A stretch of DNA of 64,000 nucleotides from a virus. The notes below the pieces were generated by a model. It saw only the letters and a list, made by a program, of their open reading frames with translations. It ran no database searches and was not told where the DNA came from. Positions 31,710 through 50,218 of this stretch are shown here, piece by piece (the stretch's first letter is position 1; each line of letters begins with the position of its first letter). The DNA lies in the IMG/VR virus record IMGVR_UViG_3300006841_000093, positions 62,001 to 126,000 of that record; one strand, written 5' to 3'. Made by a program: the position numbers and the translations under genes.

Positions 31710-33674
31710 ATGCTACCTACCGAATACCAACAATTTATTCACTTATCAAGATATGCACGATGGGATTATATCAAAGGAAGAAGAGAAACATGGGATGAGA
31801 CTGTTGAACGTTACTTTGATTTTTTTAAAGGACATTTGAAAGAAACGTGTGGTTATGATCTAGAAAATGGTGAAAGAGTAGAGTTGGAAAATGCAGTCAA
31901 GGAATTAAAAGTAATGCCTTCAATGAGATGTTTAATGACAGCTGGACCAGCGTTGGAGAAAGAAAACGTTGCGGGCTACAACTGTAGCTATGTTAAGATA
32001 GACAACTTACGTTCATTTGATGAAATACTCTATGTACTGATGAATGGTACGGGTGTGGGATTTTCAGTAGAAGAAGAATATTGTAATAAACTACCACAAG
32101 TTCCTGATGAACTATACGAAACAGAAACTACTATAGTTGTAGCAGATTCTAAGTTAGGTTGGGCGAGAGCATTTAAAGAACTGATTTCATTACTGTATGG
32201 TGGACATATACCTAAGTGGGATATAAGTAAAGTTAGAGAGGCGGGAGCACCATTAAAGACTTTTGGAGGTAGAGCTTCAGGACCTGAACCCCTTGTAGAC
32301 CTTTTTAATTTCACAACTAGTACAATTAAAAACGCATTAGGAAGAAAACTTAAACCAGTAGAATGTCATGATATAGTTTGTAAGATAGCAGAAATTGTTG
32401 TAGTAGGTGGTGTACGAAGATCGGCTCTCATTAGTCTTTCAAATCTTAATGATAGAGAAATGAGATTCGCCAAACATGGTGAATGGTACAAAGATAACGT
32501 ACAGAGAGCACTCGCAAACAACTCAGTTAATTATAAAGAGAAACCAGATGTAGGAACTTTCATGAGAGAGTGGTTATCACTCTACGATAGTAAGTCTGGA
32601 GAGCGTGGTATTTACAGTAGTTTAGCAAGCAAATCCCATGTAAGTGAACTAAATAATAGAGAAAAGGATAAAGATGGCACATACATTCAAAGAAGATTGG
32701 CAAGAGATGATTTTGGCACAAATCCTTGCAGCGAGATCATTTTACGATCCCGAGAATTCTGCAACTTGTCCGAAGTCGTCCTCAGATCCAACGATAATTT
32801 GCAGTCTATCAAAGACAAAGTTAGGGTTGCAACTATCCTTGGCACATTCCAATCTACTCTCACAAACTTCAAATACCTCTCTAGAGAGTGGCAACGAAAT
32901 TGTGAAGAAGAACGATTACTTGGAGTTAGTCTCACCGGAATCATGGATAATTCCTTAACGAATGGGTCAAAAGATAATATAAAAAAGACATTAAATGAAC
33001 TTAGAGATATCGCAGTAGAAACAAATAAAGAATATGCGAAAAAACTTGGAATCGAAAGAGCCGCCGCCATTACGTGTGTCAAACCTAGTGGTACTGTATC
33101 TCAGCTCGTTGATTCTGCTTCTGGTATTCATGCCCGCCATAATCCTTATTATATTAGGACAGTAAGGGCCGATAATAAAGACCCACTCTGTAAAATGATG
33201 AAAGCAGAGGGGTTTCCACATGAGCCTGATGTAAGTAAGCCTGAACATACTACTGTCTTTTCATTTCCACAAAAAAGCCCAGAAGGGGCGGTTTGTAGAA
33301 CAGAAATGACTGCATGGAAGCAGTTATCCTTATGGCACACCTACGCCAAAGAATGGTGTGAACATAAACCAAGTGTTACTGTCTCTATCAAGGAAGATGA
33401 GTGGGTAAATACAGCGGCTTGGGTATATGAAAATTTTGATGACATAAGTGGTATTAGTTTTTTACCATTTAGTGATCATACATATAGACAAGCACCGTAC
33501 CAAGATTGTACAGAAAAAGAGTATAAAGAACTATTAGATCAGATGCCAAAAGATGTAAATTGGGCATCTTTAGCAGATTACGAAACTCAAGACTATACTA
33601 GTGCTAGTCAAGAGTTTGCGTGTACTTCAGAGAAAGGTTGTGAAATAGTAGATATTTCACCTGCAGTCTCATAA
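31710..33674 (+). CDS. nrdJ: class II (adenosylcobalamin-dependent) ribonucleotide reductase
   Basis: The 654-residue monomeric reductase makes deoxyribonucleotides using B12. The active site NPCSEI at 338-343 has C340 and E342, the partner Cys in AGYNCSYVKID is C92, and the second active-site Cys is C351 in REFCNLSEV. The C-terminal CTSEKGCEIVD supplies the redox Cys pair. Length and the MRCLMTAGPAL block fit Lactobacillus-type RTPR/NrdJ. Use of a B12 enzyme implies a host that makes or imports cobalamin. Codon use between about 32680 and 32900 shifts toward C-ending codons. Confidence 0.94.
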   Translation: MLPTEYQQFIHLSRYARWDYIKGRRETWDETVERYFDFFKGHLKETCGYDLENGERVELENAVKELKVMPSMRCLMTAGPALEKENVAGYNCSYVKIDNLRSFDEILYVLMNGTGVGFSVEEEYCNKLPQVPDELYETETTIVVADSKLGWARAFKELISLLYGGHIPKWDISKVREAGAPLKTFGGRASGPEPLVDLFNFTTSTIKNALGRKLKPVECHDIVCKIAEIVVVGGVRRSALISLSNLNDREMRFAKHGEWYKDNVQRALANNSVNYKEKPDVGTFMREWLSLYDSKSGERGIYSSLASKSHVSELNNREKDKDGTYIQRRLARDDFGTNPCSEIILRSREFCNLSEVVLRSNDNLQSIKDKVRVATILGTFQSTLTNFKYLSREWQRNCEEERLLGVSLTGIMDNSLTNGSKDNIKKTLNELRDIAVETNKEYAKKLGIERAAAITCVKPSGTVSQLVDSASGIHARHNPYYIRTVRADNKDPLCKMMKAEGFPHEPDVSKPEHTTVFSFPQKSPEGAVCRTEMTAWKQLSLWHTYAKEWCEHKPSVTVSIKEDEWVNTAAWVYENFDDISGISFLPFSDHTYRQAPYQDCTEKEYKELLDQMPKDVNWASLADYETQDYTSASQEFACTSEKGCEIVDISPAVS

Positions 33675-40864: not shown

Positions 40865-41025
40865 TTGAAGCTATAGTATGGTTTCTACCATGGCTTACAG
40901 AAGCATGGTTGTGGGAGAACTCAGTAAAAATTGCAATAGTAGGTACATTAATATTTCAGAAACCTCGTAACTGGTGTGTTGATTATGATTCACAAGGTTA
41001 CGATACTTTATTTTATTGTTTGTAA
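40861..41025 (+). CDS. small hydrophobic protein (54 aa)
   Basis: ATG 40861 overlaps the previous stop (ATGA). The protein is EAIVWFLPWLTEAWLWENSV then KIAIVGTLIFQKPRNWC and a polar end. One or two membrane-associated segments. It ends two bases before the halogenase ATG. Confidence 0.55.
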   Translation: MIEAIVWFLPWLTEAWLWENSVKIAIVGTLIFQKPRNWCVDYDSQGYDTLFYCL

Positions 41026-41026
41026 T

Positions 41027-42637
41027 ATGAATATTATTATAGTAGGTGGTGGTACTGCAGGATGGATGACAGCAACCACACTATTAAGTGAATTTCCTAA
41101 CAAAAAAATTACACTTGTAGAATCCCCAAATATTTCTAATATAGGTGTAGGAGAAAGTACTGTTGCGGGTGGTCAAAGTGGTTTTCAAGGTATTGCTAAT
41201 TGGTTAAATTTGGTAGGAATTAATGATCTTGATTTTATGCCACATTGTGATTCTATCTACAAATTAAGTATAGCATTTAAAGATTGGTATCGTAAAGATT
41301 CGGGGACATTTCATTATCCTTTTGGTCAGCCAAGAGTTCTACCTAATATTGGATTGGATGATTGGTATTTTAAAAAAATATTTTTCCCCCAAGCTTCCCC
41401 CACAAGTGATTATGCAAATAATTTTTTCCCAGGCATGGTACTTGTAAATCAAAACAAATCCCTCTTTACTGATAGTTTCAATTCTAATTCTGATCATTCA
41501 GAACTAAATGAAATAAACGATGAAGTTCAATTACATTCAAGATATTCTTATCAATTTGACGCCACTAAATTCGGTATATGGTTAAAAGACAATTACTGTA
41601 ACAAATTCAGTAACTTTACACATATTCTAGGAGAAGTAGAAAAGGCTTCTTTGGATGATAATGGAATTAAATATCTAATATTAGATGATGGACGAAGACT
41701 TAAAGCAGATTTATTTATAGATTGTACTGGATTTAAATCTTTATTATTAAAAGAATTTGATGTTCCATTTATACACATTGATAATTATCTTACAAATAAT
41801 TTGGCATGGGCCACAAAAATTCCCTATAAAGATCCTGAAACTCAAATTGTAAATTATACAAATTGTACAGCTATAGACAATGGATGGGTATGGGAAATAC
41901 CTTTATGGTCTAGAATGGGGGCGGGTTATGTGTTTTCTGATGAATTCGTTACTAAAGGACACGCTTTATGTGAGTTTAAAGCAGAACTACAGAAAAAGGG
42001 ATATGAAGATGTCGAAGAATTAGATTATCACCTGATTTCAATGCGATGTGGCATTCATTCAAAATTATGGGTTAAAAATACATGTGCAATTGGTTTGTCT
42101 GCTGGGTTTATTGAACCATTACAATCTAATGGACTACATTGTACATATCAATTTCTATTTAACTTATGTCGTATATTAGAAAGAGATCATGTAAGTGAAT
42201 GGGATAGAAAAGAATTTACTACCAAGTGTCATGATGACTATTATGGATTTGCGGCAACAGTAGTAACTAATTATGCCCTTTCCCATAGAGATGATTCTAA
42301 ATATTGGAGAGAAATACAAAATAAAAAATGGCCAGAAGAACTTTTTTCTCCTAATTGTAATGATTTATCGGGAAAATTTCATCAGGCATATAGAGATAGA
42401 CAATTTAATAATCAATTCAATTCATATAGTCCTGTTCATATACTAGCGGCTGGCATGAATTGGAATCCTACAGATGTACATTCAATAAAATATGGTGGTG
42501 GTAACTTAGATATTATGAAAAAAATAGCTTTTATTCATGCCATGAAACTTGAGGAAAGACAAAAAAATTGGAGAAATCAAATTAAAGATTTTCCAAGCCC
42601 TTATCAATATTTAAAGAAAAATATCCATGAAAGTTAA
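41027..42637 (+). CDS. flavin-dependent halogenase (tryptophan-halogenase family)
   Basis: Starting at ATG 41027, the 536-residue protein opens with MNIIIVGGGTAGWMTATTLL (FAD site GxGxxG). K79 in SIYKLSIAFKDW stands where PrnA has its catalytic Lys79, and the halogenase motif WxWxIP is WVWEIP at 287-292. AGFIEPLQSNGLH near 370 is also a family block. Such enzymes use reduced FAD, O2 and halide to halogenate substrates. A viral member, VirX1 from cyanophage Syn10, is known. A flavin reductase is not in the window. Confidence 0.92.
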   Translation: MNIIIVGGGTAGWMTATTLLSEFPNKKITLVESPNISNIGVGESTVAGGQSGFQGIANWLNLVGINDLDFMPHCDSIYKLSIAFKDWYRKDSGTFHYPFGQPRVLPNIGLDDWYFKKIFFPQASPTSDYANNFFPGMVLVNQNKSLFTDSFNSNSDHSELNEINDEVQLHSRYSYQFDATKFGIWLKDNYCNKFSNFTHILGEVEKASLDDNGIKYLILDDGRRLKADLFIDCTGFKSLLLKEFDVPFIHIDNYLTNNLAWATKIPYKDPETQIVNYTNCTAIDNGWVWEIPLWSRMGAGYVFSDEFVTKGHALCEFKAELQKKGYEDVEELDYHLISMRCGIHSKLWVKNTCAIGLSAGFIEPLQSNGLHCTYQFLFNLCRILERDHVSEWDRKEFTTKCHDDYYGFAATVVTNYALSHRDDSKYWREIQNKKWPEELFSPNCNDLSGKFHQAYRDRQFNNQFNSYSPVHILAAGMNWNPTDVHSIKYGGGNLDIMKKIAFIHAMKLEERQKNWRNQIKDFPSPYQYLKKNIHES

Positions 42638-44340: not shown

Positions 44341-44737
44341 AAAGAATATAGTATGGAAGGGTGATTTCGAAATAGACCTTGTTAAACAAGATAGTTTAAC
44401 AGTAATGAGACATCACGCAGATCAACAAATAAAGAAACTTCAAGAACACGCAGTTCTATTGGTTGATCAAGTAAAAGAAATTATTGAAAGAGTGAGGTTA
44501 GCAGAACTCATAGCAACAGCAGAGTATGGATTTAAACCTATACCTCTAAAAGAATATTATCTCTATGAAAAGGATGATAAGTTGGTACTAACATTAATCA
44601 GCCCAGATGAATGGGATTCACCTTATGGAGAATGTATTGCTACAGTAAGACAACTAGGAGATTCAACATGGGAACAGATAACATCAGAAGTCACAGAGAC
44701 ACAGCAGCAACAATCGAAGTACTCAGAGAACAAATAG
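44333..44737 (+). CDS. DUF2452-like protein (134 aa)
   Basis: The C-terminal half FKPIPLKEYYLYEKDDKLVL, TLISPDEWDSPYGE and RQLGDSTWEQI matches the pattern of the DUF2452 family (YhLY...LSmlsPeEW...L..DsSW), of unknown role. A helical N-terminal half precedes it. Family assignment is by recall of the pattern. It is followed by overlapping small coiled-coil genes. Confidence 0.6.
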   Translation: MGEKNIVWKGDFEIDLVKQDSLTVMRHHADQQIKKLQEHAVLLVDQVKEIIERVRLAELIATAEYGFKPIPLKEYYLYEKDDKLVLTLISPDEWDSPYGECIATVRQLGDSTWEQITSEVTETQQQQSKYSENK

Positions 44738-44877
44738 AAGTTTTCAGATCGAGAATTGAAGAACATGATACGGGTCATTTGTACACTACAATTTCGACCC
44801 TAGAACACAGAATTGAAGAATTAGAAAAAGAATCAAAAGAACTAATCAACAAAGGATATATGTCGAGTTATGAATAA
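44668..44877 (+). CDS. small coiled-coil protein (69 aa)
   Basis: ATG 44668 is the plausible start, 20 codons into a frame open from 44611. The protein is one long coiled coil (TIEVLREQIEVFRSRIEEHD, then STLEHRIEELEKESKEL). It overlaps its predecessor by 70 bases and the selenoprotein gene by 8. A similar short coiled coil lies at 45728. Confidence 0.6.
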   Translation: MGTDNIRSHRDTAATIEVLREQIEVFRSRIEEHDTGHLYTTISTLEHRIEELEKESKELINKGYMSSYE

Positions 44878-45148
44878 AGACCCAAAATACCCAGCTTGGT
44901 TGATTAAGTATTGTGGATCTTGAAACTATAAACCTCAGGCGGAAAGTCTTTCTGCTGAAATGAAGGCATTAGGTTTCAATGTCATAATACAAGAAGGTGA
45001 TACTGGACAGTTTGAACTGTTTAGTCATAAGGGAACGAATTATAATTATAACGCCGAGAACTGGATTTCGTATATGAAAGAAGGTGATGGTGTTCCAAAG
45101 TTTTTTACATTACGTGATGTGGAAAAGAAATTATCTAATCTGATATAA
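44870..45148 (+). CDS. SelW/Rdx-family selenoprotein with in-frame UGA (Sec18)
   Basis: Read from ATG 44870 through TGA 44921-44923 the frame stays open to 45148, giving 92 residues. It starts MNKDPKYPAWLIKYCGSU, continues NYKPQAESLSAEMKALGFNV, and has GQFELFSHKG and MKEGDGVPKF. SelW proteins show YCGxUGYKPKAexLaxel, then a FEV strand and KxGDG; all are here at the right spacing. C15 and U18 form the CxxU redox site. The alternative, a 62-residue protein from ATG 44960, would lack the active site and first strand. A SECIS-like hairpin follows the UGA. Neighbours are bS21 and glutaredoxin, so a thiol-redox role fits. Sec insertion is inferred and needs host SelA/B/C/D. Confidence 0.87.
44935..44958 (+). 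promoter_or_regulatory. bacterial SECIS-like hairpin after the UGA codon
   Basis: TCAG (44935-44938), a bulged G, and CGGAAA pair with TTTCTGCTGA to give about ten base pairs capped by a GTC loop at 44946-44948. The loop lies 22 bases after the UGA. The E. coli fdhF SECIS has an AGGUCU apical loop at a similar distance; here the top reads AAGTCTT. The stem is within the reading frame, as bacterial SECIS elements are. Confidence 0.75.
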
Positions 45149-45154
45149 AATAAT

Positions 45155-45388
45155 ATGATTACAATAAACATAGGACCAAAACAAGACCCCAAACGGGCAA
45201 TACAAAAATTAAAGAATAAAGTAATAACAGAAGAGCTTTTTATTGAACTCAAACGCAGAAGACACTATCTTAAACCCTCTGCCCGAAAGAAACTTAAGAG
45301 AGAAGAAGCTGCTAAACAAAGAGTTAAAGATCAAAATAAGGCTCTCCGTAGAGCAGAACAACAATACAACGAAAACTTACAACGATGA
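45155..45388 (+). CDS. rpsU: ribosomal protein bS21
   Basis: The 77-residue basic protein matches bS21: RAIQKLKNKVITEELFIELK, RRRHYLKPSARKKLKREEAA, then KQRVKDQNKAL. bS21 sits near the anti-Shine-Dalgarno region of the 30S subunit, so a phage copy could favour phage messages. Phage-encoded bS21 is documented in marine phages including a SAR11 phage. It follows the selenoprotein gene after 6 bases and overlaps the next small frame. Confidence 0.92.
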   Translation: MITINIGPKQDPKRAIQKLKNKVITEELFIELKRRRHYLKPSARKKLKREEAAKQRVKDQNKALRRAEQQYNENLQR

Positions 45389-45492: not shown

Positions 45493-45726
45493 ATGACAGC
45501 AATAGTATATTCAGGCACTAACTGTGTTTGGTGTGATAGAGTAGTAAATTTATTAAAAGAATATGGCGAAGAGATTACTAAAATTGATCTTGATAGCAAA
45601 GAAAAAGTAAAGGAAATGCAAGAAGCATGTGGAAAGAAAGTCAATACTGTACCTCAAGTAATCATCGATGGAGCACATATAGGTGGTTACACAGAAACAG
45701 AACGATACATTAACCAACGGAAATAG
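45493..45726 (+). CDS. grx: glutaredoxin
   Basis: A 77-residue thioredoxin-fold glutaredoxin: CVWC active site at 11-14, NTVPQVIIDGAHIGGY with the cis-Pro TVP motif and glutathione-binding GG near 51-66. It starts behind a perfect AGGAGG. It could reduce ribonucleotide reductase or other phage proteins and may reduce the neighbouring SelW-like protein. T4-like phages often carry a glutaredoxin. Confidence 0.93.
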   Translation: MTAIVYSGTNCVWCDRVVNLLKEYGEEITKIDLDSKEKVKEMQEACGKKVNTVPQVIIDGAHIGGYTETERYINQRK

Positions 45727-49794: not shown

Positions 49795-50218
49795 TGAGAA
49801 TGAGAGAGGATCAAATGAAATGACATAGATTGACCATTAGAAATAGAGGGTAGGGATTCTCTGGCTACCCTCCGCTAGTCACCTACAGAGTACCCGTTGT
49901 GGTGTGTGTTCGACTAAGGGACACACGTAAGACACAGAGTAATGGGGGTGTAGACGGCCGATGTGACGGCGCTGAAGATGAGTGTCAGGGATCAGAGAGT
50001 GGGAACAAGCCACTCAGACAGACTCTACGAGATGTTTCTTCCTTGATTGTCTGTCGAACAGATCAGGGTACGGCCTACCCTGTGAGGTGGGAATGTCCTA
50101 GTACATGACTCCCGGAGACCTGCGACATCACTGCAGAGCCCGCATAACAAAAACTGTACTACTTAAATCTTTATTCTTATTGTTTCCCCTGTGTCAGAGA
50201 TGGCATGGGGGTTTTCTT
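49795..50218 (+). ncRNA. candidate large structured RNA B (about 420 nt)
   Basis: Between promoter P3 and a terminator lies a GC-richer stretch full of perfect hairpins: GAGGGTAG/CTACCCTC (49846-49872), GTGTGTTC/GGACACAC (49907-49926 region, 7-base loop), GAGTGG/CCACTC (near 49996-50014) and CAGGGTA/TACCCTG (50064-50082). CTACA/TGTAG with ACCCGTT/AATGGG encloses the second. A 69-codon frame from 49899 crosses it but has odd composition and no ribosome site. I tested it by eye against tmRNA, RNase P and group I intron signatures and found none. Function unknown. Confidence 0.6.
50186..50218 (+). terminator. rho-independent terminator of RNA B
   Basis: CCCCTGTGTC (50186-50195) pairs through ten positions, three of them G-U, with GGCATGGGGG (50202-50211) around the loop AGAGAT. 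TTTTCTT follows. Confidence 0.75.

Follow-up and report, generated by a model that had tools for sequence, protein, structure and literature searches.

SelW-like proteins are the commonest selenoproteins in marine surveys (PMC2398784, PMC9402790), one of which found few or no viral sequences in the families it examined, a few metal-dependent ones aside. Selenoproteins have so far been catalogued as cellular genes. The bacterial SelW-like proteins (Rdx, PF10262, TIGR02174/NF041051) have a CxxU active site followed by NY[KR]PxA and a thioredoxin-like order of strands and helices. The bacterial SECIS element belonging to a selenocysteine (Sec) UGA is modeled as a hairpin with a loop of 3-9 nt, a G in the first two loop positions, a distance of 16-37 nt from the UGA and an MFE of -7.5 or below (PMC13188914). 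Among phages, a link to selenocysteine exists in huge wastewater phages with a reported tRNA-Sec (PMC10747093), and phage glutaredoxins and thioredoxins are small thioredoxin-type thiol redox proteins encoded beside nucleotide-metabolism genes. The words phage and virus are absent from the reviews of prokaryotic selenoproteins that we searched, and no phage selenoprotein family is described in the open-licence literature searched, which leaves many subscription papers and preprints outside.

Here we analyze a window of 64,000 nucleotides (bases 62001-126000 of a virus record of 134,505 bases) that very likely carries a phage-borne selenoprotein gene of the SelW type (Table 1). Sec insertion itself is inferred, and there are no expression or mass-spectrometry data. 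Translation of the frame shows exactly one in-frame TGA, at codon 18, and an ORF listing of the locus returns only the part downstream of it. Ordinary gene finders thus halve the gene, ending it at a "stop" codon that very probably encodes Sec. The initial annotation had claimed an open frame running from the ATG through the UGA to a complete SelW-like protein, of which ORF callers would report just the tail, and both claims held. Its assignment to SelW/Rdx, with a CxxU site, a bacterial-type SECIS and a location in a phage, also held, refined to a divergent subfamily. So did its remarks that SelW-like proteins are known from marine bacteria and that phage selenoproteins are little described.

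Table 1. Features at and around the SelW locus in window coordinates, with Sec-less variants on other contigs (positions prefixed by contig)
Feature	Position	Strand	Remarks
SelW-like selenoprotein gene (predicted)	44870..45148	+	ATG to TAA, 92 aa plus TAA; Sec at residue 18
In-frame UGA, predicted to be read as Sec	44921..44923	+	motif C15-G-S-U18 (KYCGSU); TGA in 46/46 records
Fragment found by standard ORF callers	44960..45148	+	62 aa; its ATG is Met31
SECIS hairpin	44935..44958	+	ten pairs; bulged G 44939; GUC loop 44946-44948
Conserved hairpin core	44939..44955	+	7 bp + 3-nt loop; UGA to loop 22 nt
Upstream ORF	44611..44877	+	88 aa (ATGAATAA); 8-nt overlap with SelW start
bS21-like ribosomal protein gene	45155..45388	+	phrog_21469, E 1.8e-6; begins 6 nt past SelW stop
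Glutaredoxin/thioredoxin-domain gene	45493..45726	+	CVWC; downstream of SelW; phrog_22, E 3e-19
Ribonucleotide reductase	31710..33674	+	phrog_367; best named tblastn relatives B12-dependent
Sec-less variant CSSYYPQA	L063:371-595, L077:4181-4405, L083		first Cys kept, no Cys gained
Sec-less variant CKNYYSQA	L084:4035-4259		first Cys kept, no Cys gained
Sec-less variant CGRKYRPQA	L069:1124-1351, L101:1484-1711		first Cys kept, no Cys gained

The protein is a divergent SelW/Rdx homologue and not a typical SelW. A profile of the phage family retrieves the SelW/Rdx structures 2fa8 (5e-11), 3dex, 2p0g and 2npb from the PDB, and Pfam Rdx recognizes 43 of the 44 aligned members at E 0.01. The window protein itself falls below the curated cut-offs, narrowly for Pfam Rdx (22.4 versus 22.6 bits) and also for NCBIfam TIGR02174 (20.4 versus 34.2); blastp to cellular SelW gives an E of about 1e-11, in a small database. 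The phage proteins share with bacterial SelW-like proteins the CxxU site, the NY[KR]PxA after Sec and, in the predicted model, the order of strands and helices. They differ in being carried by T4-like phages, in forming a separate clade and in having an EEGxxGQFELF core; the window lineage has, in addition, an insertion before the C-terminal part, and full-length identity to cellular forms is only about 27-37%. An AlphaFold model (pLDDT 85) has the order E-H-E-E-E-H (strand, helix, three strands, helix), with the CGSU redox motif at residues 15-18 following a strand at residues 10-14. Foldseek matches the model to SelW structures with probability up to 0.99, but the E values are just 0.04-0.2, the TM score is about 0.5, and complex I B8-type subunits are also returned with weak scores. 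Because these scores are weak, we regard a thioredoxin-like fold as consistent with the model, not as proven.

Conservation of the UGA is shown by two scans of public viral DNA. The first pattern allowed Sec or Cys (TGA or TGY) at the site, followed by codons of the NY[KR]PxA type, and caught 45 viral contigs; with the window, all 46 records have TGA. Three near relatives from other metagenomes retain the in-frame UGA. A version of the pattern restricted to CGN arginine codons gave no matches because these phages use AGA. The second pattern was placed on the GQFELF strand and is therefore blind to the active site. It recovered the family again, without any Cys form at the Sec position, along with three Sec-less variants in which the UGA was lost by deletion or missense, implying two losses on the tree. 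Since such variants exist, Sec is not indispensable. In cellular relatives, the position of the phage UGA aligns with Sec in 115 cases and with Cys in 3.

The codons past the UGA are under purifying selection, as shown by sequence comparison. Pooled pN/pS is 0.33 after the hairpin region and a comparable 0.24 before the UGA, values that are descriptive only, as the pooled pairs are not all independent. Over the hairpin itself, synonymous change is halved (0.25 versus 0.46-0.51).

The initial annotation had also placed a ten-pair hairpin with a GTC loop 11 bases after the UGA. This description held, as pairing begins 11 nt past the UGA, and the window hairpin meets all four of the published bacterial SECIS constraints: a 3-nt loop, G in the first position, 22-nt spacing and an MFE of -8.5 kcal/mol. 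Its stem of 7-10 bp likewise agrees with the bacterial element (PMC13188914). A caveat is that the hairpin taken alone is weak evidence, because its folding is unexceptional (z of -0.7 to -2.4 against dinucleotide shuffles) and such hairpins are common, with 90 perfect 7-bp/3-nt hairpins on the same strand of the window. We therefore rejected single-sequence folding as proof of a SECIS, and comparative data settle the matter. The main hairpin type is represented by 25 distinct sequences, and pairing in its seven-pair core holds in 174 of 175 cells; with the partner displaced, only 33-68% pair. The strongest pair links two fourfold-degenerate third codon positions, those of Ala24 and Ser28, and is A-U in 18 sequences, G-C in 3, G-U in 2, C-G in 1 and mismatched in 1; this is synonymous covariation. 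Shuffles of synonymous codons among the sequences match the full pairing with P of about 0.0003, kinship not having been removed. In two distinct members with Thr25, Leu27 changes from CTT to TTG and the hairpin re-pairs in a shifted register.

There are exceptions. In one hairpin type (L239/L244), the pair that otherwise covaries is an A-C mismatch, the short hairpins of some relatives are weaker than -7.5, and in the Sec-less L069 a hairpin pair is broken as well. The phage loops are GUC or GGC. Among 58 non-redundant cellular SelW genes, the same 7-bp/3-nt hairpin occurs at the same offset with the same kind of G[U/G] loop, with 94% of cells paired (21-52% in slides), and it is broken in the three cellular Cys forms. 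The phage hairpins differ from the cellular ones in stem sequence and have an A-U-rich upper stem. A covariance model, R1, also matches at the correct position in cellular SelW genes; we prefer the pair counts because the sequence part of R1 reflects protein homology.

The carriers are marine T4-like phages. The DnaB-type helicase, primase and ribonucleotide reductase of the record match marine phages, and the helicase relatives, at up to about 60% identity, are from Synechococcus phages and the T4-type Methylophilales phages called Melnitz. Nearly all main-clade contigs tested carry further genes of the window phage (ribonucleotide reductase, helicase and others), among which the position of SelW varies as for a cargo gene. 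In a tree with 40 cellular SelW proteins, the 25 main-clade phage proteins form one group (100/99) apart from the cellular ones. Two canonical-type phage proteins, L012 (216-kb contig) and L038 (131-kb contig), branch instead among cellular SelW, so the gene was captured by phages more than once. Canonical SelW selenoprotein genes, also with UGA, were seen on the viral contigs L012, L046, L038 and L242; the last resembles the canonical type by sequence and lies outside the tree sample.

The phage is predicted to rely on its host for decoding. No selB, selD or tRNA-Sec was found over cut-off in the window's record or in 11 other phage records, several of which are fragments, so the host must decode the UGA, although the search left out selA. 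This absence of a detected tRNA-Sec separates the SelW phages, which have a selenoprotein gene, from the wastewater phages, for which the relevant passages give the tRNA and no selenoprotein. Supply of SelA, SelB, tRNA-Sec and SelD by the host is an inference; selB is over cut-off in 11 of 12 genomes with cellular SelW relatives. Candidate tRNA-Sec genes in the phages were rejected, as they score below gathering and ARAGORN calls most of them Tyr, Gly, Arg or Cys tRNAs. We also listed mechanically the read-through frames of the record that contain CxxU or UxxC and judged none convincing besides the SelW gene.

The identity of the host is less clear. By two single genes, the nearest isolates infect different bacteria (Synechococcus, Methylophilales and Puniceispirillum). 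The ribonucleotide reductase has its best named relatives among B12-dependent enzymes from phages of Puniceispirillum and Roseobacter, which, unlike the cyanophage-like helicase, hint at an alphaproteobacterial host as a possibility. Among 399 Pseudomonadota, the nearest cellular SelW was a single weak match, also with an in-frame TGA. Assigning the host by tmRNA similarity was rejected: the 29-base match was to one 0.9-Mb genome whose selB-like matches all fall below cut-off.

We propose that a ribosome arriving at UGA18 would meet, just downstream, a hairpin that binds host SelB carrying Sec-tRNA, and that Sec would be inserted to give the full 92-residue protein. The product, a small member of the SelW/Rdx family, would be thioredoxin-like and have CxxU as its redox site. 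It would resemble the phage glutaredoxins and thioredoxins in size, chemistry and genomic company, and would differ in using Sec rather than Cys at the active site and in needing host selenium machinery. Its most likely function would be that of a glutathione- or glutaredoxin-linked oxidoreductase sustaining thiol chemistry during infection, with protein repair, peroxide defence and electron supply to the phage ribonucleotide reductase as possible uses. Family and context are the basis for inferring this particular redox role, and we would not wager on it in either direction. That the ribonucleotide reductase is the redox client is likewise an inference and no more than a possibility.

We considered four alternatives. 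The one that survives best accepts a genuine selenoprotein and gives it a mainly non-redox role, for example as a selenium-dependent switch or a host-interaction protein. In its favor, three variants keep the protein and lose Sec without Cys replacement, which would be unexpected of a selenol with a purely catalytic function. Against it, the SelW family uses CxxU as its redox motif, and SelW lies near a glutaredoxin gene in several contigs; besides the window, a homologue is found about 0.5-2.5 kb away in L022, L064/L088, L070 and L071. We consider this reading unlikely.

A second alternative is that a standard amino acid is inserted at the UGA, through a suppressor tRNA or a recoded phage genetic code. 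Phages that recode stop codons are known (PMC9523058), but a recoded code should avoid UGA as a terminator and use it frequently inside genes, a description that the window phage does not fit. As the initial annotation had stated of other genes here, UGA is a normal stop: 15 of 47 window ORFs of at least 150 aa end in TGA, and genes across the remainder of the record are terminated by it too. Moreover, L015, L021, L022, L037 and L087 have UGA both inside the SelW gene and as its own terminator, and tRNA searches of the phage reported no tRNA with a UCA anticodon. Recoding would also leave the CxxU motif and the hairpin unexplained, and we judge it very unlikely.

Also very unlikely is a true stop, with a 17-residue peptide and a separately started 62-residue tail, or a decaying gene. 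ORF callers do split the gene in this way, and there is an ATG at 44960. However, the UGA is kept in 46 records with purifying selection downstream, and the tail alone would lack the first strand and the active-site Cys. The internal start is not conserved, since several relatives (L055, L059, L065 and L067) have Ile in place of Met31.

Finally, single-base errors can produce a UGA and the record is metagenomic. In practice, however, the recurrence of the in-frame TGA in many independent metagenomes excludes a sequencing error, and a viral contig made chimeric by misassembled host DNA is all but ruled out by the window-phage genes on nearly all tested main-clade contigs and by the single phage clade apart from cellular SelW.

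The preferred reading, a phage-borne selenoprotein gene, places a known type of selenoprotein in an unrecognized genetic home, since the family is absent from PHROGs (0 of 44 members match), from 50,697 annotated phages searched with three different queries, and from the open-licence literature searched. It explains why annotation splits these genes and raises the question of how much of the marine SelW pool is viral. The phage clade keeps Sec and no Cys form was found; therefore, the fitness of these phages would hinge on SelB and on the selenium of the host. Such a dependence would act as a host filter, as the full protein could be made only in Sec-decoding hosts. The natural Sec-less relatives offer a direct route to what Sec contributes. 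A bolder reading is that phages are a standing selenoprotein reservoir, that a sizeable part of marine SelW-like genes is viral, and that phages exploit host selenium decoding for a superior redox enzyme, tying infection to host selenium status; on balance, we lean slightly against it.

Three further observations concern the phage genome. A large tryptophan-halogenase-like gene lies at window positions 40976-42637 (phrog_2928, E 1e-122). An Ocean-VII RNA, a marine RNA family, occurs inside the phage genome at window positions 49979-50019 on the + strand (68.5 bits). Outside the window, the same phage has a permuted, two-piece tmRNA gene with the tag ANNNDYTPAYAYAIAA (L009:6289-6619, corresponding to G000:C1:130289-130619), and comparable tmRNAs are known in Melnitz-like phages (PMC9004378).
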